Assembly (NCBI GenBank): GCA_025359685.1 | Contig: JANYEY010000050.1 | Coordinates: forward strand, 1 to 64,000 | Direction of reading: 5' to 3' | Length of the DNA: 64,000 nucleotides | DNA from: Sphingomonadaceae bacterium | GTDB lineage: Bacteria; Pseudomonadota; Alphaproteobacteria; Sphingomonadales; Sphingomonadaceae | Shown: positions 7,852 to 21,783 of the stretch, piece after piece | Layout: each line of letters opens with the position of its first letter | Numbering within the stretch: position 1 is the first letter of the stretch | Translations under genes and position numbers: made by a program | The notes under the pieces: model-generated | The model's database searches: none | Seen by the model: the letters and a program-made list of their open reading frames with translations, nothing else | Told to the model about the DNA's origin: nothing

Positions 7852-8481
7852 CTATTTGCCTGTTTCATCCGAATGACGATTTTGAGGTGATGCTTCCGTT
7901 TGTGTTTCGGGCGATGCTGACTGCCATGCCTGATGCACAGACAGCGCCTTGTCCCACAAATTTGACCAACTGAGTTCAAGCCCGTCGTTCGCAGTGACGT
8001 GGTTCAATGAGGTCACTCCTACGGAATAGATTCCCCGAACTTCGAGATCATCCCAGCCATCGAAGTTGCTTCCAAGTTTGCCAAAAAGGCTTGCGACAGC
8101 ATCTCTGATCTCAGGTGTGCCGAAAGTTAGTCGCGCGTGGCAGTGGGCCGCGACATTACGGATTTCCTTTATCATCTCAAATTTTCGCCGGGTCGTCCGG
8201 TCAATGACCCCAAGAGCTTGCGCCATTCTAATCCGGTTGGAAAAGCTGCCAATCGGGCCTTCATATGAAAATAGCCGAGCTGACTCCTCAGAGTTTATTC
8301 CTGGCATCAAGCGTTTGATGCGCTCAACGAGAAATTCCTCAAGCATTGCCGCATGCAAGATCATGGTTGCGCGATCACTCTCGCCGATCATGTGTTTGAC
8401 ATGATCGTTCGGGTGGATCGCTTCAATTCCTTGGTTCAAAAGCTGCTTCAGAGCGGCTATGGAAGTCGCATGGCTCAACAA
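7852..8481 (-). CDS. MtlR (mannitol repressor)-like protein, IS1595 passenger
   Basis: 209 aa; ...RATMILHAAMLEEFLVERIKRLMP...LFSYEGPIGSFSNRIRMAQALGVIDRTTRRKFEMIKEIRNVAAHCHARLTFGTPEIRD; family call by eye. Start may lie further in. Confidence 0.55.
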   Translation of the reverse strand: MLSHATSIAALKQLLNQGIEAIHPNDHVKHMIGESDRATMILHAAMLEEFLVERIKRLMPGINSEESARLFSYEGPIGSFSNRIRMAQALGVIDRTTRRKFEMIKEIRNVAAHCHARLTFGTPEIRDAVASLFGKLGSNFDGWDDLEVRGIYSVGVTSLNHVTANDGLELSWSNLWDKALSVHQAWQSASPETQTEASPQNRHSDETGK

Positions 8482-8643: not shown

Positions 8644-9555
8644 TCAGGCAGCGAGCGAACTAGGTTGCCGGTACATGAGGCGCTTGCCGCGTGCGCCCTT
8701 GATCGCTTCGATCGTGCGTTCGCTGTCAGTCAGCTTGCGGGTGTTGTAGCGGAAATCGAACTCGCGGCAGTAGCGGGCCAGATGGGCTTCGCTCATGTGA
8801 TGGTATGTGCCGATCACACCGCGCTTAAAGATCGAGAAGAAGTTTTCGACCGTGTTGCTATGCTTGAAGCCGCCGGTGGTCACATACTCGCTGGCGCTGT
8901 GATTGACGCTGCTATGGCCGTTAAATTCACGCCCAACGCGAGTGTAAACGGGGCTTTCGTCGGTCATAAGGTGAGCCGAGCGGTCAACGTTCGTGACGAT
9001 CAGCGGGCGAAGGGTTTTGGCATTGACGTTCGCAACGTGGAAGCTGCGGGCCATGCCGTCACGTTCAACCAGCGCGACGACCGCCTTCTTAGGAGCGGGC
9101 TTGCGCGTAGCACGATTGCGGGCCTTGCCGCCGACATATGTTTCATCGGCTTCGACCACGGTTTCGGGACCGCCGAGCGGGCTATCGTCGCCAGCCATAG
9201 CTTCGCGGATACGGTGCGCCATGAACCATGCCGACTTGTACGTAATGCCGAGATCGCGGTGCAACTCGTGAGCGCTAAAACCCTTCTTGGCGCTGTTAAG
9301 CAGGCGGAACGCGAGCAACCACTTATTGAGCGGGATTTTGCTATCCTCGAAGATCGTGCCGACCGTCACAGTGAAAGGCTTGGCGCACTCATTGCACTTG
9401 TAAACGCCGGGGCGCGTGGACTTGCCAGCGAGCTTCGTAATGCGGTCCAAGGTGCCGCAGCGCGGGCAGACGGGGCCATGCGGCCAGTGCAGCGCTTCAA
9501 GGTGCTCGCGGGCCTTGTCTGCATCGCTGTAAATGGGGTTGGTGAGGTCGGTCAT
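8644..9555 (-). CDS. IS1595-family transposase
   Basis: Zn-ribbon CPRCGTLD...YKCNECAKPF, VEADETYVGGKARNRATRK, NHSASEYVTTGGFKHSNTVENFFSIFKRGVIGTYHHMSEAHLARYCREFDFRYN. Confidence 0.92.
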   Translation of the reverse strand: MTDLTNPIYSDADKAREHLEALHWPHGPVCPRCGTLDRITKLAGKSTRPGVYKCNECAKPFTVTVGTIFEDSKIPLNKWLLAFRLLNSAKKGFSAHELHRDLGITYKSAWFMAHRIREAMAGDDSPLGGPETVVEADETYVGGKARNRATRKPAPKKAVVALVERDGMARSFHVANVNAKTLRPLIVTNVDRSAHLMTDESPVYTRVGREFNGHSSVNHSASEYVTTGGFKHSNTVENFFSIFKRGVIGTYHHMSEAHLARYCREFDFRYNTRKLTDSERTIEAIKGARGKRLMYRQPSSLAA

Positions 9556-9845: not shown

Positions 9846-12227
9846 TTACAGTTTGACCCGGTTGAGCCGGAGTGAGTTCATGACAACCGTGAAGGATGAC
9901 AATGCCATCGCCGCGCCCGCAAACATCGGCGACATCAGGATGCCCGATATCGGATAAAGCACGCCGGCCGCGACCGGCACGCCAATCCCGTTAAACAGGA
10001 ATGAGAAGAATAGGTTCTGGCGGATGTTGCGCATCGTCGCCTTGGCGAGCGCACGGGCGCGGACGACGGCTGCAAGATCGCCTTTGGTGAGTGTGATGCC
10101 GGCACTTTCGATGGCAACATCGGTTCCTGTTCCCATGGCGAGACCAACATCGGCAGCCGCGAGCGCTGGGGCGTCATTGATCCCGTCACCTGCCATCGCG
10201 ACCTTTGCGCCGGATGCCTTGAGTTCGCCGACGATGCGCGCCTTGTCGTCGGGTTTGAGTTCGGCGTGAACACCGTCGAGGCCGCCCACAGCACCGGCAA
10301 CGACCTGGGCGGTGGTCGGATTGTCACCGGTCAGCATGATGACGCGCAGGCCCTGTTTGCGGAGCGCTTCGATAGATTCGCGCGCATTGGCGCGAATGGG
10401 ATCGGCGACCACGACCATTCCGGTAAGTTTCCCATCGACCGCGACCAGCATAACGCCAGCACCTTCGCGCCGTCTGGCTTCGGCAGCGTCGTTGAGTGGC
10501 GCCGGATCGACGCCGATGCGCTGCATCTGTGCGGCATTGCCGATCACGACGTTGCGACCGCCGATAACGGCGCTAATGCCCGCCCCGACCTGAATCTCGA
10601 AATTTTCTGGCTCGCCGAGTGTCAGCTTGCGTTCTTGCGCGGCGCTCACAATGGCATGGGCCAGCGGATGCTCCGAGCGCGCCTCGACGGCAGCCGTTAG
10701 CGCGAGCAAATCATTCTCGGCAATCCCGCCAATGGTCTCGATGGCAATGAGCTTGGGCTTGCCTTCGGTGAGCGTCCCCGTCTTGTCGATCACCAGCGTA
10801 TCGACTTTCTCGAAGGCTTGCAGAGCTTCGGCATGTTTGACCAGCACGCCAGCCTGCGCCCCGCGCCCGGTAGCCACCATGATCGACATCGGGGTGGCAA
10901 GACCTAGCGCGCAAGGGCAGGCGATAATCAGCACAGCGATGGCATTGAGCAGGGCATGGCCCATGCGGGGTTCAGGCCCGACGAGGCTCCACACCGCAAA
11001 GGAGACGAGGGCGATCCCGATTACCAGCGGCACGAACCATCCCGAGATTCGATCCGCCACCGCCTGAATGGGCGCGCGGCTGCGTTGGGCTTCGGCGACC
11101 ATCCGGACGATGCGGGCGAGCATGGTATCCGCGCCAACTGCCTGAGCCTCCATCACCAGACTGCCGGTGCCGTTGACGGTGCCGCCGGTGAGCGCGCTCG
11201 CCGATTCCTTGGCGACCGGCAAGGGCTCGCCGGTAAGCATCGATTCATCAACAGAGGATCGCCCGTCGATCACGATACCATCCACCGGCACCGCTTCGCC
11301 GGGCCGGATGCGGAGGCGGTCGCCCGTTTGCACTTCTGCGAGCGGAATGTCGGTTTCGGTTCCGCCGGTATTGATGCGTCGCGCCGTTTTTGGCGCAAGA
11401 TTGAGCAGCGCACGGATCGCTTTGCCTGTTGCCGCACGGGCGCGCAATTCGAGAACTTGCCCGAGAAGGACAAGCGCAACGACGACGCCTGCCGCTTCAT
11501 AATATACTGGCACCATGCCGCCGTGGGTTCGGAAGCTCGGAGAGAACAGCCCCGGAGCAACGGTTGCGACCAAGCTATAAAGGAAAGCCGCGCCAACGCC
11601 GATGGCGATCAAGGTGAACATATTTAGCTTGCGCGTGATGATCGAAGTCCAGCCGCGCGAGAAGAATGGCCACCCCGCCCACAGGACGATGGGCGCGGTA
11701 AGTGCCAACTGGATCCACGGCGAAACAGCGGAATCGACTAAATGCAACCCAAGCAGCTCGCTTCCCATCGTCAGGACGAGCAGCGGCACTGCCAGCGCGG
11801 CAGATACCCACCAGCGCCGTGTAAAGTCGATCAGTTCGGGGTTGGGGCCATCATCCAGCGATGGCTCTTCGGGCTCCAGCGCCATCCCGCAGATCGGGCA
11901 GGTTCCTGGCCCTTCTCGCCTGATTTCGGGGTGCATCGGGCAGGTCCACATCGCGCCGGGAGCAGCAATGGCTTCCGCGCGCAGAGCGGCGGAGAGATAT
12001 TTGGCCGGATCGGCAGTGAACTTTGCCAGGCATCCCGCACTGCAAAAATGAAATTCGACGCCATCATGGTGGGTATGGTGAGTGGTCTTAGCGGGATCGA
12101 CCGTCATGCCGCAAACCGGATCAATGATTGCCGTCGCATCTCTTGAAGGGCTGTGTGAATGATTATGATGCAGCCCTGTCATGGAAATGTCCTTGGTTGG
12201 TGGCGCGCTCCTAATATCTTCTGTCAT
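9846..12227 (-). CDS. Copper-translocating P1B-type ATPase with YHS and heavy-metal-binding N-terminal domains
   Basis: [27 protein letters not shown] (YHS), [78 protein letters not shown]. Confidence 0.95.
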
Positions 12228-12733
12228 TCTGTCTTTGATTTGTGCCCAAGCTTGAAATGCACCGCCGAATCTTCAGCCATTTTGCTGACGCACCACCGTG
12301 CGTAGGGTCTCGCAAACATTAGCCCAAAGAAATGACCCAACGGACTGGCTGGCAAGTCGTATTCGATAAACACACGCAACAAGGATCGGTTGCCGTCGGC
12401 CTCAATCTCGAATCCCATCCGGTAGGCGCCCATGACCAGAATGCGCGGCGCGCCCACGGTTTGCCAAACCTTTCTCCGTGGTCGCTCGTGCTCGGTCACT
12501 TCTTCCTGCAATGTCAGCGTTAGCCCCAGAATTTTTCCGTCCATCCGGATTACTGAACCGACAATTCGACCTTCACCTTCATCGAAGGTGTAGTGCATCG
12601 ATCCGCCGAGCATCATCGCAGACGGTTTTTCCATATGGCCGCCCAAGCTGGCTTGGTCGTCCAGAAAGGCAAAGACGGCATCGGCTTTCGCTGCGATCGT
12701 TGACCGCGCCTCCTGAGTGTAATGAAATGTCAT
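12224..12733 (-). CDS. SRPBCC (START-like) family protein in copper operon
   Basis: [71 protein letters not shown]...; overlaps ATPase start by 4 nt. Confidence 0.65.
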
Positions 12734-12753
12734 ATTCACTCTCCCTGGGGCGG

Positions 12754-13689
12754 TCACATCGACATCGGCGGCTCGAGCGTTCCGAGCCACGCGACAAGTC
12801 CGAGGATGATGAGCGCTGCGCTCGTCTCGCAGATCACGCTCACGCGCAACTGGCTTATGGCCGGTAATGTTCCCCCGCCCGTGATGGCGTTGCCAAAGGC
12901 GGGCGTCAGCCGGAACCTGTTTGCCGCTGCCAGTCCCAGCATCCCTCCAAACAGCAGGAGCTTTGCTATAAGCAGCTGCCCATAGAGTGTCGAACGCATC
13001 GACAGCAGATGTTCGGGGCCAACCAGCATCCAGCTATTCACAAGGCCGGACAAGACGATCAGTGCGACAATCAGCCCTCCGATAAGTGAAAAGCCTTCGA
13101 GCGCGCGGTGGGTGAGCCGGATATGATCTTTCGACATCGAACGAGCGGGACGAAACAGCAGCGCGCCAAGCGCCACAAGCGCGCCGAACCACGCTCCCGC
13201 CGCCAACAAATGCACAATGTCCGCGATCAGATGACGCGTCCCCGCGATACCGTCGCTTGCTGCGCCATGCCCGGTCCAGGCCAGCGATGCGAGCGCACCC
13301 GCCGCACTTATCGAGACCAAGGCCAGCCACAGCGGAGTCTTGCGCCCACCCATCACAATCGCAATCGTGAACGACATCAACAGGGCCCCAATACGCGCAG
13401 CCCAGGCGTTCCCCATTGGCGTTTCGTAAATCATCATTTCAACCGAGGCGCGGTCAACCTCAAGCAATTCAACGCCCGCCATCGAGGCGGTCATCGCAAC
13501 GATACTTAGCACCGACAGCAAAATGGCCGTCGCAGAAAGCCAGATTGTCATAAGCCGGAACGGCAACACGTTCCCCCGCAGCCGTTCCGGGCCCTTCAGG
13601 CCATATAGTCCGAACAGCGGCAGTCCGAACAACAGCATCAGGTTCACATAGAGCGCGAACCTGATGCCGATGGTCAACGTGTCGATCAT
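12754..13689 (-). CDS. copD: Copper resistance membrane protein CopD
   Basis: Multi-TM; GHGAASDGIAGTRHLIADIVHLLAAGAWFGALVALGALLF; immediately downstream of copC. Confidence 0.85.
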   Translation of the reverse strand: MIDTLTIGIRFALYVNLMLLFGLPLFGLYGLKGPERLRGNVLPFRLMTIWLSATAILLSVLSIVAMTASMAGVELLEVDRASVEMMIYETPMGNAWAARIGALLMSFTIAIVMGGRKTPLWLALVSISAAGALASLAWTGHGAASDGIAGTRHLIADIVHLLAAGAWFGALVALGALLFRPARSMSKDHIRLTHRALEGFSLIGGLIVALIVLSGLVNSWMLVGPEHLLSMRSTLYGQLLIAKLLLFGGMLGLAAANRFRLTPAFGNAITGGGTLPAISQLRVSVICETSAALIILGLVAWLGTLEPPMSM

Positions 13690-14076
13690 TTACCGCACGG
13701 TGAAGGTGAGAGTGCCTTCCATGCGGTGCGTGTCCGCGCCCGCTGCGTGCCACTTCAGCTGGTACGTTCCGGGAGTAAGCGCGCGGCGCATCGTCAGGGT
13801 GAGCGTCTTGCCGTCCGCGCTCATTGCCGAAGTAAAGCCGGTAATTAGCATCGGCTGGTGGTTGGCCATGCCAGGCATCGAGGTCATGATCAGCGTGGCC
13901 CCGGTAAAGTTGGCAACGACCCGCTCGTTGAAGGTCAGGACAACCCGGCCGGTTTTGCCAATAGTGGCATTGGCCGCAGGCGAGGACGACACAAGCTTGG
14001 TATGGGCCTGCGCGCCGCCTGCGAACGCAAGAGCGGCAAGAAGGGGGGCGGTCAAAGCAATGCGGAATCTGGACAT
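13690..14076 (-). CDS. copC: Copper resistance protein CopC
   Basis: Signal peptide, AHTKLVSSSPAANATIGKTGRVVLTFNERV...GTYQLKWHAAGADTHRMEGTLTFTV. Confidence 0.92.
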   Translation of the reverse strand: MSRFRIALTAPLLAALAFAGGAQAHTKLVSSSPAANATIGKTGRVVLTFNERVVANFTGATLIMTSMPGMANHQPMLITGFTSAMSADGKTLTLTMRRALTPGTYQLKWHAAGADTHRMEGTLTFTVR

Positions 14077-14105
14077 GAAGAGTCTCCATCTAGGGGTTCA
14101 TGGCA

Positions 14106-14133
14106 TATACGCAGCGTCGAAGCCCGCCCCTTG
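14106..14133 (-). promoter_or_regulatory. Candidate ECF-sigma promoter for copC-copD-SRPBCC-ATPase operon
   Basis: Minus strand CAAGGG-N16-CGTATA, about 30 bp upstream of copC; same layout as 14166-14193 and 15491-15518. Confidence 0.45.
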
Positions 14134-14165
14134 AAAAATCCGTGTCCAGCTGATCAATCTGGTAT

Positions 14166-14193
14166 TGAGGGATCGCGATATGCCATGCGTATA
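14166..14193 (+). promoter_or_regulatory. Candidate ECF-sigma promoter for the CnrYXH-like trio
   Basis: TGAGGG-N16-CGTATA, 24 bp upstream of the 14218 start codon. Confidence 0.5.
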
Positions 14194-14217
14194 ACATCGA
14201 CACTGGAGTTTCTGGCA

Positions 14218-14490
14218 ATGAACGATGTTGACGAGATGCTGGCACGGCTGGCCAATGCGCCGCTCCCTTCGCGTCTGGCGACAATGGACCAGGCGGTATT
14301 TGCCGGGCTCGCACAATATGACCGATCGGATGCATCGAGGTCGCTTGGCATTGCCGGAATGGTGGCGCTAGCCGTCGGCGTAGCCAGTACCGGGCTTCCC
14401 GGCAGCCCCGCCGTTGCCGCGCCGTCAGTCACGCCGTTTGGCGTGCCGTCCGCGCTGGCGCCGTCTTCATTGCTGCTGGCCTCGAAGTGA
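14218..14490 (+). CDS. CnrY-like anti-sigma factor (single TM, 90 aa)
   Basis: MNDVDEMLARLANAPLPSRLATMDQAVFAGLAQYDRSDASRSLGIAGMVALAVGVASTGL..., GGAG RBS upstream; position directly before a CnrX-like sensor and ECF sigma gene, 4-nt overlap. Confidence 0.6.
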   Translation: MNDVDEMLARLANAPLPSRLATMDQAVFAGLAQYDRSDASRSLGIAGMVALAVGVASTGLPGSPAVAAPSVTPFGVPSALAPSSLLLASK

Positions 14491-14927
14491 CAAACCTCCG
14501 CCGCACGCTGCTGGTGGCCTTAATCGCATTCACCGCATCCATTACTGGTGTGTGGGTTGGCCGAGTCGTGCTCCCGCCCAGCCATGCCGCTGACAGCGAA
14601 CTGCATGCCCTGCTGCACAATCAGCTCGATCTCGATGCGGCCCAACGCGCCAGGATTGATGCCCTCGAGGGGCAATTCGCGATGCGCCGCAAAGCGCTCG
14701 AACTCGAGATGCGCGCCGATAATGCCAGACTGGCGGGGGCGATCGAGACCGAGCATGGCTACGGCCCTCAGGTTTCAGCGGCCATCGACCAATCGCACAT
14801 GGCAATGGGTGAACTCCAAAAGGAAACGCTGGAACATGTTTTTGCGATGCGCGGGCTCTTGCGGCCAGATCAGGCCGCAAAATTCGATACGGCCGTGGTG
14901 AAGGCGCTGACAGCCGATCAGCAATGA
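14487..14927 (+). CDS. Periplasmic heavy-metal sensor, CnrX-like
   Basis: ELHALLHNQLDLDAAQRARIDALEGQFAMRRKALELEMRADNARLAGAIETEHGYGPQVSAAIDQSHMAMGELQKETLEHVFAMRGLLRPDQAAKFD; keeps HxxxH and HxxxM metal-ligand patterns. Confidence 0.85.
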   Translation: MTNLRRTLLVALIAFTASITGVWVGRVVLPPSHAADSELHALLHNQLDLDAAQRARIDALEGQFAMRRKALELEMRADNARLAGAIETEHGYGPQVSAAIDQSHMAMGELQKETLEHVFAMRGLLRPDQAAKFDTAVVKALTADQQ

Positions 14928-15493
14928 CGATGGCGCTGGGCGAATGCTCGGACGGCGAGTTGGCAGCCCTCGCCCTTGCTGGACGGCAGGCGGCTTTTGG
15001 CGAACTCTTGGAACGCTACCGTTCGCCCGTCTTCCGTTTGGTGCGGGGCAATACTGGCGATGATGATGCCGCGCTCGATGTGACGCAAGAGACCTTCATC
15101 GCCGCGTTTGCAGCACTGAAGAGCTATGACGGCACGCGACCGTTCAAGACCTGGGTATCGCGGATCGCGCTCAACAAATGCCGAGATTGGGCCCGCCGGC
15201 GTGCGGTGCGACGTTTCTTTTCATTCGCACTGCCAATTGAAGCCGCAGAGAACATATCCGACGACAGCATCCCGGCCGATCGGCAGCTGGCCGATCGAGC
15301 CGAACTTGCCCGTGTGCGCGAAGCGATTGCCAAACTTCCAGCTACACTCCGCGAACCCTTGATCCTGCGTACTGTCGAAGGACTTAACCAGGCCGAAACT
15401 GCAGGGATACTGGGGATCAGTGAGAAGGCCGTTGAAACGCGAGTCTACCGAGCACGCAAAGCGCTCGAAGCGAGCCGCTCGTTAAATTTTTGA
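14924..15493 (+). CDS. RNA polymerase ECF sigma factor, CnrH-like
   Basis: AFGELLERYRSPVFRLVRGNTGDDDAALDVTQETFIAAFAALKSYDGTRPFKTWVSRIALNKCRDWARRR...LPATLREPLILRTVEGLNQAETAGILGISEKAVETRVYRARKAL. Confidence 0.93.
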   Translation: MTMALGECSDGELAALALAGRQAAFGELLERYRSPVFRLVRGNTGDDDAALDVTQETFIAAFAALKSYDGTRPFKTWVSRIALNKCRDWARRRAVRRFFSFALPIEAAENISDDSIPADRQLADRAELARVREAIAKLPATLREPLILRTVEGLNQAETAGILGISEKAVETRVYRARKALEASRSLNF

Positions 15494-15518
15494 GGGAACG
15501 GCTCACGCGCTGCGTATG
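15491..15518 (+). promoter_or_regulatory. Candidate ECF-sigma promoter for DUF305-copA-copB operon
   Basis: TGAGGG-N16-CGTATG starting at the sigma-gene stop codon and 44 bp before the next start codon. Confidence 0.5.
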
Positions 15519-15561
15519 ACCCGATAGCGGTCACCGAGATTCAGCGCAAAGGACTTTGGAC

Positions 15562-16122
15562 ATGGCAGGAGAGCATCAGCAGCCTGAGCATGACGGCACG
15601 CATGGTGCGCCGACCCACGCTCATGAAGCAATGAAGAGTGACGCAAAGGGGGGCATGCCCCACACCGGTCATGGTGCCCATCCGTATCGAAAGCTGTTTG
15701 CCGAACTCGTGCTTGATTTCGTGATCATGTTTTTCGTGATGTACGCGATGATCGCAAGCGCGGAGCATCTCTATTTCAATATTGGCAACGTCTACATGAC
15801 CCTGATGATGGTCGCACCCATGATGGCGCTGATGATTTTCTTCATGGGCAAAATGTACCCTTCGCCCAGGGCCAATCGGATGCTGATTGGTCTTGCCGCG
15901 CTCATTTTCGCGGTCGGCTGGTTTGGCATGCGCGAGCAGCTCGGCGTGGGCGATGCCCAGTTCCTACGTTCGATGATTCCGCACCACAGCGGGGCGATCC
16001 TAATGTGTGAGAAGGCGAAACTGACGGACCCGGAAACGGTGCGACTTTGTCAAAATATCATTGCGGCGCAGGAACGCGAGATCGCGCAGATGCAAACCAT
16101 TCTGACACGAGTTGAAAGATAA
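15562..16122 (+). CDS. DUF305-family membrane protein
   Basis: MAGEHQQPEHDGTHGAPTHAHEAM...; two TM segments then QFLRSMIPHHSGAILMCEKAKLTDPETVRLCQNIIAAQEREIAQM. Confidence 0.85.
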   Translation: MAGEHQQPEHDGTHGAPTHAHEAMKSDAKGGMPHTGHGAHPYRKLFAELVLDFVIMFFVMYAMIASAEHLYFNIGNVYMTLMMVAPMMALMIFFMGKMYPSPRANRMLIGLAALIFAVGWFGMREQLGVGDAQFLRSMIPHHSGAILMCEKAKLTDPETVRLCQNIIAAQEREIAQMQTILTRVER

Positions 16123-16126
16123 CTTG

Positions 16127-17923
16127 ATGACGTCACATCTAAGCCGCCGCCAGATTCTCCAAGGTGCGACCATCGCCGGTGGCTCGCTCGCGATGGGTTC
16201 GCTGTTCCCGGCATGGGCAGCAAGCGGGTCCGCCGGCATAAGTCCGGCGATGGGCTCCGTTTCCGGAACCGATATTGCGCTTTCAATCGGTCATGCGCCA
16301 TTTCGCGTGGGCGGGAGAACTGGCCACGCTGTAACGGTCAACGGAACGCTGCCCGGACCGATCATCCGGTTGAAGGAAGGGCAGAGGGTCCGCCTTGCCG
16401 TCACCAACACGCTCAAAGAGGACAGCTCGATCCACTGGCACGGCGTTCTAGTGCCGTTCCAGATGGACGGCGTTCCCGGTGTCAGCTTTCCGGGGATCAA
16501 GCCTGGCGAGACCTATAATTACTGGTTCGAAGTCAAGCAGTCCGGCACTTACTGGTATCATAGCCATTCGGGTGGGCAGGAGGCGATGGGGCAGTATGGG
16601 GCCATTGTAATCGACCCGGCCGGTGCCGATCCCGTCGCCTATGACCGCGAGCATGTGATCGTGCTTTCAGACTGGAGCTTCATGCATCCGCTGGAGCAAA
16701 TGCGGAAGCTGAAGGCGATGGGCGGTTATTTCAACCACAACAGACAGACGCTGGCTGGGTTGATCCAGTGCAAGGATCAATCGCAGTCAGACCGTGCGAT
16801 GTGGGGCAAGATGCGGATGGATCCGACCGACATCTCCGATGTGAACGGTTCCATCTATACCTACCTGATCAACGGGCACGGGAGCCAGGAAAACTGGACA
16901 GGTCTGTTCACTCCAGGTGAGCGGGTGCGGCTGCGGATCATCAATGCTTCGGCCATGACCAATTTCAATGTGCGGTTGCCCGGATTGCCGATGACTGTGG
17001 TGGCGGCGGACGGCCAGCACGTTCAGCCGGTCGAGACCGACGAGTTCCAGATCGCGATCGCCGAAACCTATGATGTGATTGTCCAGCCCAAAGACGATCA
17101 GGCTTACGGCCTCATTGCTGAAGCAATTGACCGCTCGGGCCAATGCCGCGCCACGCTGGCCCCGCGCATGGGCATGATCGCGGCGATTCCGGCCATCCGC
17201 GAACGCCCGCTGCTCACCATGAAGGACATGGGGATGGGCGCTATGGATATGTCGGGGGGAAGTGGGCATTCCGCGCACGGTTCGGCTACCCCTGCCACGG
17301 ACCCGATGGCCGGTATGGACATGTCGGGCGGCGGTGACATGGCCGGAATGGACATGAGCGGCGGATCGATGAACATGCGCGACCCATCCGTCGCGCCCCA
17401 GGTCAAGATGGGACCGGGCGTCGCTACGCTTTCGCCGATGCCGATGGATCGCACCGGGGAACGCCCGACCGGCCTCGAGAAGGTCGATCACCGTGTTCTG
17501 ACCTATCGCGATCTCAAATCGCTCACTCCCAACGCCGATACCCGCAAGCCGTCCCGAGAACTTGACTTGCACCTCACCGCCAACATGGAACGCTATATGT
17601 GGTCGTTCGATGGGGTGAAATTCAGCGAGGGTGTCGATCCCATTCCGTTCCGTCACAACGAGCGGGTTCGGATCAATTTGATCAATGACACGATGATGCC
17701 GCATCCCATCCATTTGCACGGCCATTTTGTCGAACTGGTGACGGGAAATCCCGGCAATCACCCCGTCAAACACACCGTCAATGTCCTGCCCGGAGGTAAA
17801 GTGTCGGTTGATTTGACTGCGGACGCGCTCGGAGACTGGGCGTTCCACTGCCACATGATGTTGCACATGATGGCAGGGATGTTCCGCGTCGTAACGGTGC
17901 GCCCCGAGGAGGCAGCGGCATGA
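16127..17923 (+). CDS. copA: Copper resistance multicopper oxidase CopA (PcoA-like), TAT-exported
   Basis: MTSHLSRRQILQGATIAGGSLAMG (RR signal), IHWHGVLVPFQMDGVPG, YWYHSHSGGQEAMGQYG, MDMSGG/MAGMDM repeats, HPIHLHGHFVEL, HCHMMLHMMAGMFRVV. Confidence 0.96.
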   Translation: MTSHLSRRQILQGATIAGGSLAMGSLFPAWAASGSAGISPAMGSVSGTDIALSIGHAPFRVGGRTGHAVTVNGTLPGPIIRLKEGQRVRLAVTNTLKEDSSIHWHGVLVPFQMDGVPGVSFPGIKPGETYNYWFEVKQSGTYWYHSHSGGQEAMGQYGAIVIDPAGADPVAYDREHVIVLSDWSFMHPLEQMRKLKAMGGYFNHNRQTLAGLIQCKDQSQSDRAMWGKMRMDPTDISDVNGSIYTYLINGHGSQENWTGLFTPGERVRLRIINASAMTNFNVRLPGLPMTVVAADGQHVQPVETDEFQIAIAETYDVIVQPKDDQAYGLIAEAIDRSGQCRATLAPRMGMIAAIPAIRERPLLTMKDMGMGAMDMSGGSGHSAHGSATPATDPMAGMDMSGGGDMAGMDMSGGSMNMRDPSVAPQVKMGPGVATLSPMPMDRTGERPTGLEKVDHRVLTYRDLKSLTPNADTRKPSRELDLHLTANMERYMWSFDGVKFSEGVDPIPFRHNERVRINLINDTMMPHPIHLHGHFVELVTGNPGNHPVKHTVNVLPGGKVSVDLTADALGDWAFHCHMMLHMMAGMFRVVTVRPEEAAA

Positions 17924-19092
17924 GGCTTCTGACCTCCAGCGCTGTAGCGATGTCCTTTGCACTGGCGACGCCTGCCGCCGCGCAGATGGATATGAACATG
18001 CCGGGGATGCAAATGTCCGCCAAGCCGGCAGTGAAACCCAAGCCAAAGGCCAAGGCAAAGCCTGCCCCGAGGCCGAAAGCCGTGGTTCGCAGGGGAGCAC
18101 GGCCGGCGGCCCACCGGCCACGGCAACAGCCCGTGCCCAAACCCGTACCCCAACCCGCTGCGAGCGTGGATCCTATGCCGGGAATGGACATGAGTCCGGC
18201 GACGCCCGCGCCGGCAACACCTGCTCCTGAGCACGATATGTCATCCATGCCCGGTATGGATATGACCAAGCCGGAAGCGCCCGCTGCAAGCGATCCCCAC
18301 GCTGGCCACGACATGGCAGGAATGCCGGGCATGGAGATGCCGGCGAGTGAGATCGGCGACACGCCTGCTCCGGCGCCGCCCTCCGACCACGCAGCAGACG
18401 GCATATTTGGTGCAGCGCAAATGGCGAACTCGCGCGCCATGCTACGCCATGAGAACGGCGGGATGCCCGCCTACAGCATCGTCTTCAATCTTGCCGAGTA
18501 TCGCGTTCAAAAAGGTGCAGATGCCTATCGCTGGGATGGCGAGGGCTGGTTCGGCGGCGACATCAACCGCTTTGTCGTCAAGACCGAAGGTGAAGGTTCT
18601 GTTCGCGGAGGCGTCGAAAGCGGCGAGGTACAGGCACTCTATTCGCGCGCGATCGGTCCCTGGTTTAATCTTCAGGCAGGTGTCCGGCACGATTTCAAGC
18701 CGGGGCCTTCACGCACCTATGCGACCATCGGCTTTGAAGGCGTCACCCCTTACTGGTTTGAGGTCGAGGGTGCGCTGTTCCTTTCGGACAAGGGCGATGT
18801 CCTCGGCCGGCTTGAGGGATATTACGACCAACGCATCACCCAGAATCTGATCCTGCAACCACGTGTAGAGCTGAATTTCGCAGCGCAAGATGTGCCAGCG
18901 AACGGCATTGGTTCGGGCTTGTCCGACGCGGAACTAGGGTTGCGACTGCGTTACGAGATCAGACGCGAGTTTGCGCCCTATATCGGCGTGTCATGGGAGC
19001 GAAAGATCGGCGACAGCGCCCGTTTTGCCCGCGCTGCTGGAGAGCGGGTGCAAGCGACAAGCCTCGTCGTCGGCATCAGGACGTGGTTCTGA
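17920..19092 (+). CDS. copB: Copper resistance outer membrane protein CopB with Met-rich and Pro/Lys-rich N-terminus
   Basis: MPGMQMSAKPAVKPKPKAKAKPAPRPK..., MPGMDM repeats, beta-barrel C-terminus YRWDGEGWFGGDINRFVVKTEGEG...FAPYIGVSWERKIGDSARFARAAGERVQATSLVVGIRTWF. Confidence 0.95.
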   Translation: MRLLTSSAVAMSFALATPAAAQMDMNMPGMQMSAKPAVKPKPKAKAKPAPRPKAVVRRGARPAAHRPRQQPVPKPVPQPAASVDPMPGMDMSPATPAPATPAPEHDMSSMPGMDMTKPEAPAASDPHAGHDMAGMPGMEMPASEIGDTPAPAPPSDHAADGIFGAAQMANSRAMLRHENGGMPAYSIVFNLAEYRVQKGADAYRWDGEGWFGGDINRFVVKTEGEGSVRGGVESGEVQALYSRAIGPWFNLQAGVRHDFKPGPSRTYATIGFEGVTPYWFEVEGALFLSDKGDVLGRLEGYYDQRITQNLILQPRVELNFAAQDVPANGIGSGLSDAELGLRLRYEIRREFAPYIGVSWERKIGDSARFARAAGERVQATSLVVGIRTWF

Positions 19093-19832
19093 GTTCCCGG
19101 CGCCACCGCCTGCACCTGTTTGCAAGCCGTCTCCATAAATGGCTGGCGCTGTTCATTGGCGCACAGCTGCTCATCTGGTTTGCGAGCGGGGCGCTGATGA
19201 GCTTTCTGCCCATCGACAAGGTGCGCGGCGAACATCTTGTTGATCGGGCGGCCGTGGTGACCATTCCCCTTGGCACCCGGTTTGCAGATCCAGCAGCGAT
19301 TAGCGTCCGTGCAGGAGAGCCGGTCGAGGCCATCAACCTGCATATGGTTGATGGCCGCGTGGTCGCCGAGGTGACGACCGGCAAGGGCATCAAGCTGGTC
19401 GATGCAGCAACGGGCGCCTCTTTGCCGCCAATTAGTGCAGTGCAAGCCACTGCCATTGCGAACGCCGCATGGAAAACGGTCACCAAGCCGATCAGCAAGG
19501 CGTCGCGTGTCACCGAGGAAGGCCCCGAATATCGCGGCGCGCTCCCAGCCTGGCGGATCGCCTTCGCCGATCCCGATGCGACCAGCGTGTTCGTCTCGGC
19601 GGACACGGGCCGGATCACCGCCGTCCGCACCGGCACTTGGCGGCTCTACGATTTCTTTTGGAGCCTCCACATCATGGACTGGAAGAACCACGAGGATTTT
19701 AACACGCCGTGGCTGCTCGCCTTTGCCATTGGCGGGCTTCTGCTCGGGCTGGCCGGTACCATACTGCTGTTTATGCGCTGGCCGTTCCGGCGCAGGAAAA
19801 AACGCCTAAGCAAAGAAGGAATCATCCGATGA
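19083..19832 (+). CDS. PepSY-domain inner membrane protein
   Basis: GTG start overlapping copB stop; LHKWLALFIGAQLLIWFASGALMSFLPIDKVRGEH...FFWSLHIMDWKNHEDFNTPWLLAFA. Confidence 0.8.
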   Translation: MVLSSRRHRLHLFASRLHKWLALFIGAQLLIWFASGALMSFLPIDKVRGEHLVDRAAVVTIPLGTRFADPAAISVRAGEPVEAINLHMVDGRVVAEVTTGKGIKLVDAATGASLPPISAVQATAIANAAWKTVTKPISKASRVTEEGPEYRGALPAWRIAFADPDATSVFVSADTGRITAVRTGTWRLYDFFWSLHIMDWKNHEDFNTPWLLAFAIGGLLLGLAGTILLFMRWPFRRRKKRLSKEGIIR

Positions 19833-20257
19833 AAAAACTCATTCTCGCGCTTGCATTGGCATCGACCCCGGCACTCGCCGCGACCGACATCGTCATGCAC
19901 CGTGACCCCGGCTGCGGGTGTTGCGAAAAATGGGCGGCGCAAGTGCGGGCTGCTTTCGGCCGCAAGGTGCAGATTTTGGACGACGCGAACCGCGCCACCT
20001 TCGATGCCAGGCTTGGCGTCCCTGCTTCGCTGTCTGGCTGTCACACCGCGATTATCGACGGGATGACGTTTGAAGGCCATGTTCCTATCGCTGACATGAA
20101 GCGCGTTATTGCCGCCAAGCCTGCAGGTGTTCGCGGACTTGCCGTTGCCGGAATGCCGATGGGATCGCCTGGAATGGAAATGCCGGGAATGGCAGCGGGC
20201 CATTACAACGTGATCGCGTTTGGTTCAGGCAGGCCATTCGTATTCGCGCGACATTGA
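19829..20257 (+). CDS. DUF411 metal-binding protein
   Basis: Signal peptide; MHRDPGCGCCEKWAAQV...GVPASLSGCHTAIIDGMTFEGHVPIADMKRVIAAKPAGVRGLAVAGMPMGSPGMEM. Confidence 0.92.
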   Translation: MKKLILALALASTPALAATDIVMHRDPGCGCCEKWAAQVRAAFGRKVQILDDANRATFDARLGVPASLSGCHTAIIDGMTFEGHVPIADMKRVIAAKPAGVRGLAVAGMPMGSPGMEMPGMAAGHYNVIAFGSGRPFVFARH

Positions 20258-20424
20258 AGAGATAGCATTACCGGTCAGCATGCGGTTGAGAAATGCCTGA
20301 AATCCAAGTGCCGAATGCACGGAACCTATTTGCCTTTGATTGCGTTTAAATAGAGCAGAATTTAATTGATTGGAACTTGATCTCTTAAGTCAGGATCATG
20401 GCCACCGGCTATCTAGGATTCTAC

Positions 20425-21783
20425 ATGATCAAGAAGCTGAACCTAATTTCGATTTTAGCGATGACATCAGGATTTGGCTGGAGCGCGCCTTCTTTCGCTT
20501 CTGAGCCGCAGTGTTTGCCGGGCGGCCGTTGGGACCCAGAAATGCAAATGTGCATGCAAACCGGGGTAAAAGTTCCCGAACCCCCTGTTGTTGCGCCACC
20601 GTCCAGGGGAGCCCAAACAGAGGCTTCACGTGCAGCGCCTGCGGCAATGCCAACCATGCCTATGGCAAGCCGCCAGCCACCGACCAGGACTGTCATGGAC
20701 ATGCCTGCTGAAACGATGCCGGAAGCTCCTTTGATGCTCCAGGTCAATCAATTCGCACTGTATTCTCATACAACCGGCCCACGCGGCGGGTCACGCGTGA
20801 CCGGACCTGGCACCTGGATGTTGATGTATAATCAAAGCCTGTCACCCAGCAACAAGTTGCAGGTTAGTTTGATGGCGTCGCCCGAACAATTGACTGTTGG
20901 AGACAAAGGGACGCCGCAGCTCCTGCAAGTCGAGAACATCGACAACATGCATGCACATGATACGATCATGGCGCTCGAATTCAGGGACATAATCTCAATT
21001 GGTCCGAACGGTAACCAGCATCTGACGTTTCTGTTCGCCCCACGCGGAGCTGCGGCGATTGGCCCTGTCCCTTTCATGCACAGGCAGTCCGCAGAGGGCA
21101 ATCCAGATGCTCCCCTTGGACACACTCTGCAGGACGGCTTCCATGATGCTTCCACGGTTTTGGGTGTTGAATATGGATTTGGGCGAACCACAGTCGAGGC
21201 CACAGCATTTAGCGGCGCTGGCATTAGCTGGCCGTTGCCACTGCACAGCCCTGATTCCTTCGCCTTCCGTTTGACTCAGGGCATCGGCGAGCATGTCAAT
21301 TTGGGAGCATCATATGGAGACGTCCTTTCGACCGGCGATCACGGAAATATGGAACACAGCCAGTATATTTCAGCCTGGGTGGCGACCTCGCACAAGATCG
21401 GACCCGGCACCCTCAAATCTTCGCTCGTCTTTGCAAGAGGACGAAATGGCAGCAGCCCCTCGCAAAGCAGCCTGCTGGCTGAAGCAGTCTATGCACGCGG
21501 AATGAACGCATTTTTCGGAAGGGCCGAGGTGTTGCAGGCCACGCCAGAGGAACTTGACGTAGCAACGATTCCCAACCCTATCGATCCCCAATGGGTGAAG
21601 GCACTTACCTTTGGATACGAGCGGACTTTGTTTGAACAGCGGGGCTTATCATTTCGTCTTGGCGGTTCGTACACCAAGGATTTCGTACCATCGGATTTCA
21701 GGCCCGAATATGGCTCTCATCCTGGCGGATTTAAGCTCTTCCTGCGGATCAAGTTTGTCACAAATGGCGGGCACGCGATGTAA
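20425..21783 (+). CDS. Uncharacterised outer-membrane-like protein of the copper region
   Basis: Signal peptide MIKKLNLISILAMTSGFGWSAPSFA; Cys/Met-rich CLPGGRWDPEMQMCMQ; barrel-like alternating C-terminus ending GGFKLFLRIKF. Confidence 0.7.
   Translation: MIKKLNLISILAMTSGFGWSAPSFASEPQCLPGGRWDPEMQMCMQTGVKVPEPPVVAPPSRGAQTEASRAAPAAMPTMPMASRQPPTRTVMDMPAETMPEAPLMLQVNQFALYSHTTGPRGGSRVTGPGTWMLMYNQSLSPSNKLQVSLMASPEQLTVGDKGTPQLLQVENIDNMHAHDTIMALEFRDIISIGPNGNQHLTFLFAPRGAAAIGPVPFMHRQSAEGNPDAPLGHTLQDGFHDASTVLGVEYGFGRTTVEATAFSGAGISWPLPLHSPDSFAFRLTQGIGEHVNLGASYGDVLSTGDHGNMEHSQYISAWVATSHKIGPGTLKSSLVFARGRNGSSPSQSSLLAEAVYARGMNAFFGRAEVLQATPEELDVATIPNPIDPQWVKALTFGYERTLFEQRGLSFRLGGSYTKDFVPSDFRPEYGSHPGGFKLFLRIKFVTNGGHAM

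Follow-up and report, generated by a model that had tools for sequence, protein, structure and literature searches.

A CnrYXH-like sigma factor system predicted to regulate the copper resistance operons that flank it in a Sphingomonadaceae bacterium

For sigma systems that sense metals in the periplasm, the standard example is CnrYXH, known from resistance to nickel and cobalt; in Cupriavidus metallidurans, pMOL28-encoded CnrYXH drives the RND efflux system CnrCBA. Which metal, then, is served by a CnrYXH-like trio that lies among copper resistance genes? This question is raised by a locus in the window, a stretch of 64,000 nucleotides from contig JANYEY010000050.1 of a Sphingomonadaceae bacterium, for which an earlier note had proposed an anti-sigma factor, a CnrX-like sensor and an ECF sigma factor that regulate the surrounding copper genes. 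The note had left two possibilities, a sensor repurposed for copper or copper genes placed under Ni/Co-responsive control.

Open reading frames read from the sequence gave three overlapping genes on the plus strand, in the order anti-sigma factor, sensor and sigma factor:

14218..14490, plus strand: anti-sigma factor (Y), 90 aa, with one hydrophobic/membrane stretch recognized by eye
14487..14927, plus strand: CnrX-like periplasmic metal sensor (X), 146 aa, GTG start
14924..15493, plus strand: CnrH-like ECF sigma factor (H), 189 aa, with Sigma70_r2 and r4_2

The sensor matched the Pfam family Metal_resist (PF13801) with 56 bits (cut-off, 29), and its best solved relatives were CnrX (E value, 4e-20) and NccX. 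The earlier note had suggested checking 14487..14927 by structure prediction and alignment with CnrX/NccX. The AlphaFold model (pLDDT, 88.5), its top Foldseek matches, which were all CnrX/NccX with the CnrX structures first, and the alignment of the ligands all pointed to these proteins. Among PDB entries, the sigma factor was closest to CnrH (4cxf; E value, 1e-32), followed by matches at approximately 1e-17. The proposed trio was therefore borne out by the reading frames, by PF13801 and by CnrX and CnrH as best PDB matches, and this kinship is established at the level of sequence. By the same sequence comparisons, the anti-sigma factor is the weakest link of the homology case. It aligned with the CnrY/NccY family model over its full length but below the threshold (13.7 bits; cut-off, 35), and a profile match between copper-linked and CnrCBA-linked Y proteins (probability, 79%; E value, 1.6e-5) indicated a distant relation only. 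The span first assigned to the trio, 14099 to 15493, holds at its end; its start lies upstream of the real gene start at 14218, and positions 14077 to 14217 are intergenic space with two divergent promoter sites.

The trio is located between a copC-copD-ATPase operon on the minus strand and a copM-copA-copB-PepSY-DUF411 operon on the plus strand, and all neighbors postulated before in these divergent copper operons were confirmed by profile matches, which also identified an SRPBCC-like protein and a transposase:

8644-9555, minus strand: IS1595-type transposase (PF12762), the next gene downstream of the copper ATPase
9846..12227, minus strand: copper-type P1B ATPase with YHS and HMBD domains (TIGR01511, above cut-off)
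12224..12790, minus strand: SRPBCC-like protein (Polyketide_cyc2, PF10604), within the copCD-ATPase operon and overlapping copD
12754..13689, minus strand: copD (NF033808, above cut-off)
13690..14076, minus strand: copC (NF033814, above cut-off)
15562..16122, plus strand: DUF305/CopM-like protein (PF03713), ATG start assumed, frame opening with TTG at 15556
16127..17923, plus strand: copA multicopper oxidase (TIGR01480, above cut-off), ATG start assumed, frame opening with TTG at 16112
17920..19092, plus strand: copB outer-membrane protein (PF05275)
19083..19832, plus strand: PepSY_TM protein (PF03929), start approximate
19829..20257, plus strand: DUF411 protein (PF04214)

The SRPBCC-like gene also adjoins the ATPase gene in relatives such as L062, L120, L123, L127, L130 and L156. 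Directly after the DUF411 gene, positions 20398 to 21783 (plus strand) encode a 461-aa protein with no Pfam match; a 71% identical counterpart also follows DUF411 in L062 and L120. The protein may be a further copper cluster component that is as yet uncharacterized. No RNA elements were found between positions 8000 and 22000 with Rfam.

As the earlier note had observed, no CueR-like gene is present in the cluster. In the genome assembly of this bacterium (2.58 Mb, 88% complete), likewise, no protein scored above the CueR family cut-off (best, 85 bits versus 147). Many relatives carry cueR beside the ATPase gene, the position occupied here by the transposase; since no CueR scored above the cut-off in this genome, cueR may have been lost or displaced. 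In many relatives, judging from this neighboring cueR, the trio is thus not the sole copper regulator.

A possible link between the trio and the copper operons was provided by a bipartite motif, RAGGG-N16-CGTAT, that closely precedes copC, the trio and copM:

14107..14133, minus strand: predicted sigma-H promoter of copC-copD-ATPase, CAAGGG...TGCGTAT, ending 30 nt before the copC start
14166..14192, plus strand: predicted sigma-H promoter of the trio, TGAGGG...TGCGTAT, ending 25 nt before the anti-sigma start
15491..15517, plus strand: predicted sigma-H promoter of the copM-copA-copB operon, TGAGGG...TGCGTAT, overlapping the sigma stop codon

At the last site, the sigma stop codon TGA (15491-15493) forms the first three bases of the putative -35 box TGAGGG; in relatives, the positions of the motif, counted from the sigma stop, group at -10 and -2. 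In the 2.58 Mb of assembled sequence, the stringent pattern GGGR-N13-TGCGTAT had three exact matches, corresponding to these three transcription units only. With one mismatch allowed, 31 matches were found versus 27 for a reversed-pattern control, so the assembled genome gives no indication of additional sites, and a looser pattern, RAGGG-N15-GCGTA, returned the same three sites plus two others, which is chance level. Since the motif had been recognized initially by visual inspection of the window, its test rests on other genomes.

We therefore turn to related loci, in which "copper-linked" means cop genes within approximately 4 kb and is defined by gene neighborhood alone; the loci were fetched with the window sensor as the query, so the sample is biased toward its kin and gives no relative frequencies. 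In copper-linked loci, the motif was present before the anti-sigma gene (96 of 117), after the sigma gene (95 of 114) and before the divergent copC (58 of 93). The background in the same comparison was 0.029 sites per kb and strand, a level far exceeded by the three sites across relatives in the Sphingomonadales. CnrH-dependent transcription starts have been published for cnrY and cnrC of C. metallidurans (PMC9045368). Because the equivalent boxes there end approximately 8 nt before these starts, the pair very likely represents the -35 and -10 elements recognized by a CnrH-type sigma factor. If the boxes have this function, the trio would activate itself and both cop operons, suggesting an autoregulated copper regulon. 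The earlier proposal that the trio is wired to the copper operons thus gained support from a motif of ECF type which is shared by three units, conserved in relatives and matched by mapped CnrH promoters. In some genomes, the regulon may have extra promoters. In locus L066, where the copper ATPase gene stands apart from copCD, a 16 bp motif (G115:C17:31313-31338, plus strand) is also located approximately 280 bp ahead of that gene.

By analogy with CnrYXH, the membrane anti-sigma factor Y and the periplasmic sensor X would sequester the sigma factor H at rest. A rise in periplasmic copper, the presumed inducer, would lead to copper binding by X and to the release of H from Y. RNA polymerase carrying H would then start transcription at the RAGGG-N16-CGTAT site before the trio, and the same H-dependent start would occur before copC-copD-ATPase and copM-copA-copB-PepSY-DUF411.

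Next, we consider which metal the sensor might recognize. The HALLH (H40 and H44) and HVFAM (H117 and M121) motifs noted previously are present, and the fifth ligand position, E61, aligns with CnrX E63. These five CnrX metal-ligand positions are nearly universal in copper-linked and CnrCBA-linked sensors alike, so that the HxxxH/HxxxM pattern does not tell copper from nickel; moreover, CnrX has been crystallized with Ni, Co, Zn and Cu, according to the titles of the structure entries, and therefore the ligand set does not decide the metal. Both observations would suit a sensor that controls the copper operons while being broad or retaining a response to Ni/Co (or Zn or Ag), in which case several metals would switch on the copper genes. 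We regard this explanation as rather improbable in view of two features that separate the copper-linked systems from the CnrCBA-linked ones.

The first feature is found in the sensor. An H104xxM107 pair was present in 115 of 115 distinct copper-linked sensors and in none of the 8 CnrCBA-linked sensors, where these positions are occupied by E and A; H90 occurred in most copper-linked sensors only. H104 and M107 are located on a predicted helix (residues 94 to 122) together with the ligands H117 and M121, 10 to 17 residues away, and the helix geometry suggests that they lie outside the primary metal site. In two distant sensors of other alphaproteobacterial families, L218 and L254, D takes the place of the first His ligand, and in L218, I takes that of the Met ligand; both keep H104 and M107.

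The second feature is the promoter spacer. When all spacings of 12 to 21 bp between RAGGG and CGTA were counted (shuffled regions gave approximately 0.1 to 0.3% per spacing), the spacer was 16 bp at 198 of the 202 sites of copper-linked loci and 17 bp at the remaining 4, with no other spacing, versus 17 bp in 11 of 11 CnrCBA-linked sites. The spacer was 17 bp in a further Cupriavidus locus and 16 bp both in Asticcacaulis and in a locus from another alphaproteobacterial family. Four CnrA-linked plasmid loci were also fetched; one (L256) has an annotated trio and a 17 bp spacer, and the other three (L257 to L259) have no annotated trio. A CnrX search in Alphaproteobacteria yielded no further clearly CnrCBA-linked loci. 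Both kinds of site occur in one Novosphingobium genome (G035): on contig C100, a 16 bp site lies approximately 400 bp from its sensor gene, and on contig C5, a CnrCBA-linked locus has a 17 bp site. The CnrCBA-linked sequences form their own branch, with SH-aLRT values of 100 in the sensor tree and 99 in the sigma tree, and the window protein falls outside it; since this group is one clade, the association of spacer and residues with the metal type is a single evolutionary contrast.

Taken together, copper repurposing is favored over Ni/Co control of copper genes. In nearly all of the retrieved relatives, whether on a chromosome or a plasmid, the trio is flanked by cop genes, and a plasmid of Asticcacaulis has the 16 bp motif also before a gene for a copper-binding protein, before copA and upstream of an RND operon. 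In addition, separate CnrCBA-linked trios (L097 and L098), whose spacer is different, occur in the same genus, which suggests separate duties and argues, together with the H104/M107 pair conserved in the copper-linked set only, against a broad sensor. The trio is very probably a dedicated copper resistance regulator, and from these comparisons we assign a probability of roughly 0.78 to the full reading, namely, a copper-dedicated CnrYXH relative that drives itself and both cop operons through RAGGG-N16-CGTAT.

That reading also requires the motif to be recognized by the sigma factor of the trio, which is a prediction. The motif might instead belong to another regulator or sigma factor and the trio be a bystander, given the cueR gene beside the ATPase gene in many relatives and the MerR- and CopR-type homologues, below family cut-offs, in the genome of this bacterium. 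This seems very improbable, as both boxes are found at the mapped CnrH promoters of Cupriavidus and the presence of the motif tracks that of the sensor between genomes. Among 120 genomes of the same genus, a longer version of the motif was found in 59 of 72 with the sensor versus 4 of 48 without it (P = 2e-16, kinship ignored). With the right spacing, the longer motif was present in 83 of 200 genomes, compared to 20 of 200, and none in the genome studied here, for a control spacing one base longer. The conservation of these promoter-like sites and their link to the sensor are thus apparent from genome comparison. Finally, the transposase that adjoins the ATPase gene where many relatives have cueR could be taken as a sign of decay or inactivity of the system in this genome, which is hardly credible with three open genes in overlapping frames and with ligand positions and three promoter sites intact.

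Clusters of this kind were found in sphingomonads and some Caulobacterales, on chromosomes and many conjugative plasmids; by the gene neighborhoods retrieved, the copper-linked arrangement is common in sphingomonads and not peculiar to the window. If this widespread branch serves copper, it would supply matched sensors and promoters with few differences between the members of a pair. These would allow direct tests of how a single protein scaffold distinguishes the two metals, copper and nickel, and of what keeps paralogous sigma factors from using one another's promoters. The branch would also provide a named regulator for the copper clusters of sphingomonads and some Caulobacterales, in which the sensor is now recorded as a "periplasmic heavy metal sensor." Tentatively, and with somewhat less than even confidence, the one-bp difference in spacer between otherwise common boxes and an added His-Met site, which would make the sensor respond to copper, might keep copper and Ni/Co modules apart within a cell.

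The copper-linked branch seems not to have been described previously: no description of a copper-linked CnrYXH was found in the literature searched, although this is weak evidence, as the search covered mostly papers available without subscription and probably lacked the main ECF classification papers. The system resembles CnrYXH in its Y-X-H order with overlapping genes, in the sensor fold and its five ligands, in having CnrH as the closest sigma factor with a structure, in the RAGGG and CGTAT boxes and in its autoregulated layout. Unlike CnrYXH, it is linked to copper resistance genes and not to CnrCBA/NccCBA; copper-linked spacers are 16 bp (17 bp in CnrYXH), the sensor has H104/M107 in place of the CnrX-type E/A, the anti-sigma factor of the window scores below the CnrY model cut-off, and the window protein lies outside the CnrCBA-linked clade. 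Judged by spacing, linked genes, tree and CnrY score, the trio is homologous to CnrYXH and outside its nickel/cobalt branch. NccYXH (nickel/cobalt/cadmium) is similarly close, with NccX being one of the sensor's best matches in both sequence and structure, and the same differences apply; the E/A residues and, following the sigma gene, a 17 bp spacer occur in an ncc/cnr-type paralogue (L241).

Other ECF sigma factors have been connected with copper. The CorE-type sigma factors of Myxococcus answer to copper, which CorE senses through its own Cys-containing C-terminal extension (PMC8999054). The window sigma factor shares with CorE, as described there, a link to copper, here by gene context. It differs in having separate anti-sigma and periplasmic sensor genes and in lacking such an extension: the 189-aa protein ends soon after region 4 (residue 181), and its only Cys residues are at positions 8 and 86. 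Two copper-stress-induced ECF sigma factors with separate anti-sigma factors are known, SigAb-AabAB of Acinetobacter (PMC12153292), in which AabA is modeled to bind like CnrY and SigAb acts on cop genes indirectly, and SigF-NrsF of Caulobacter (PMC8224329), whose core copper response lies in other gene clusters. In the passages of these reports considered here, both systems are described without a CnrX-like periplasmic sensor, whereas the trio in the window has one.
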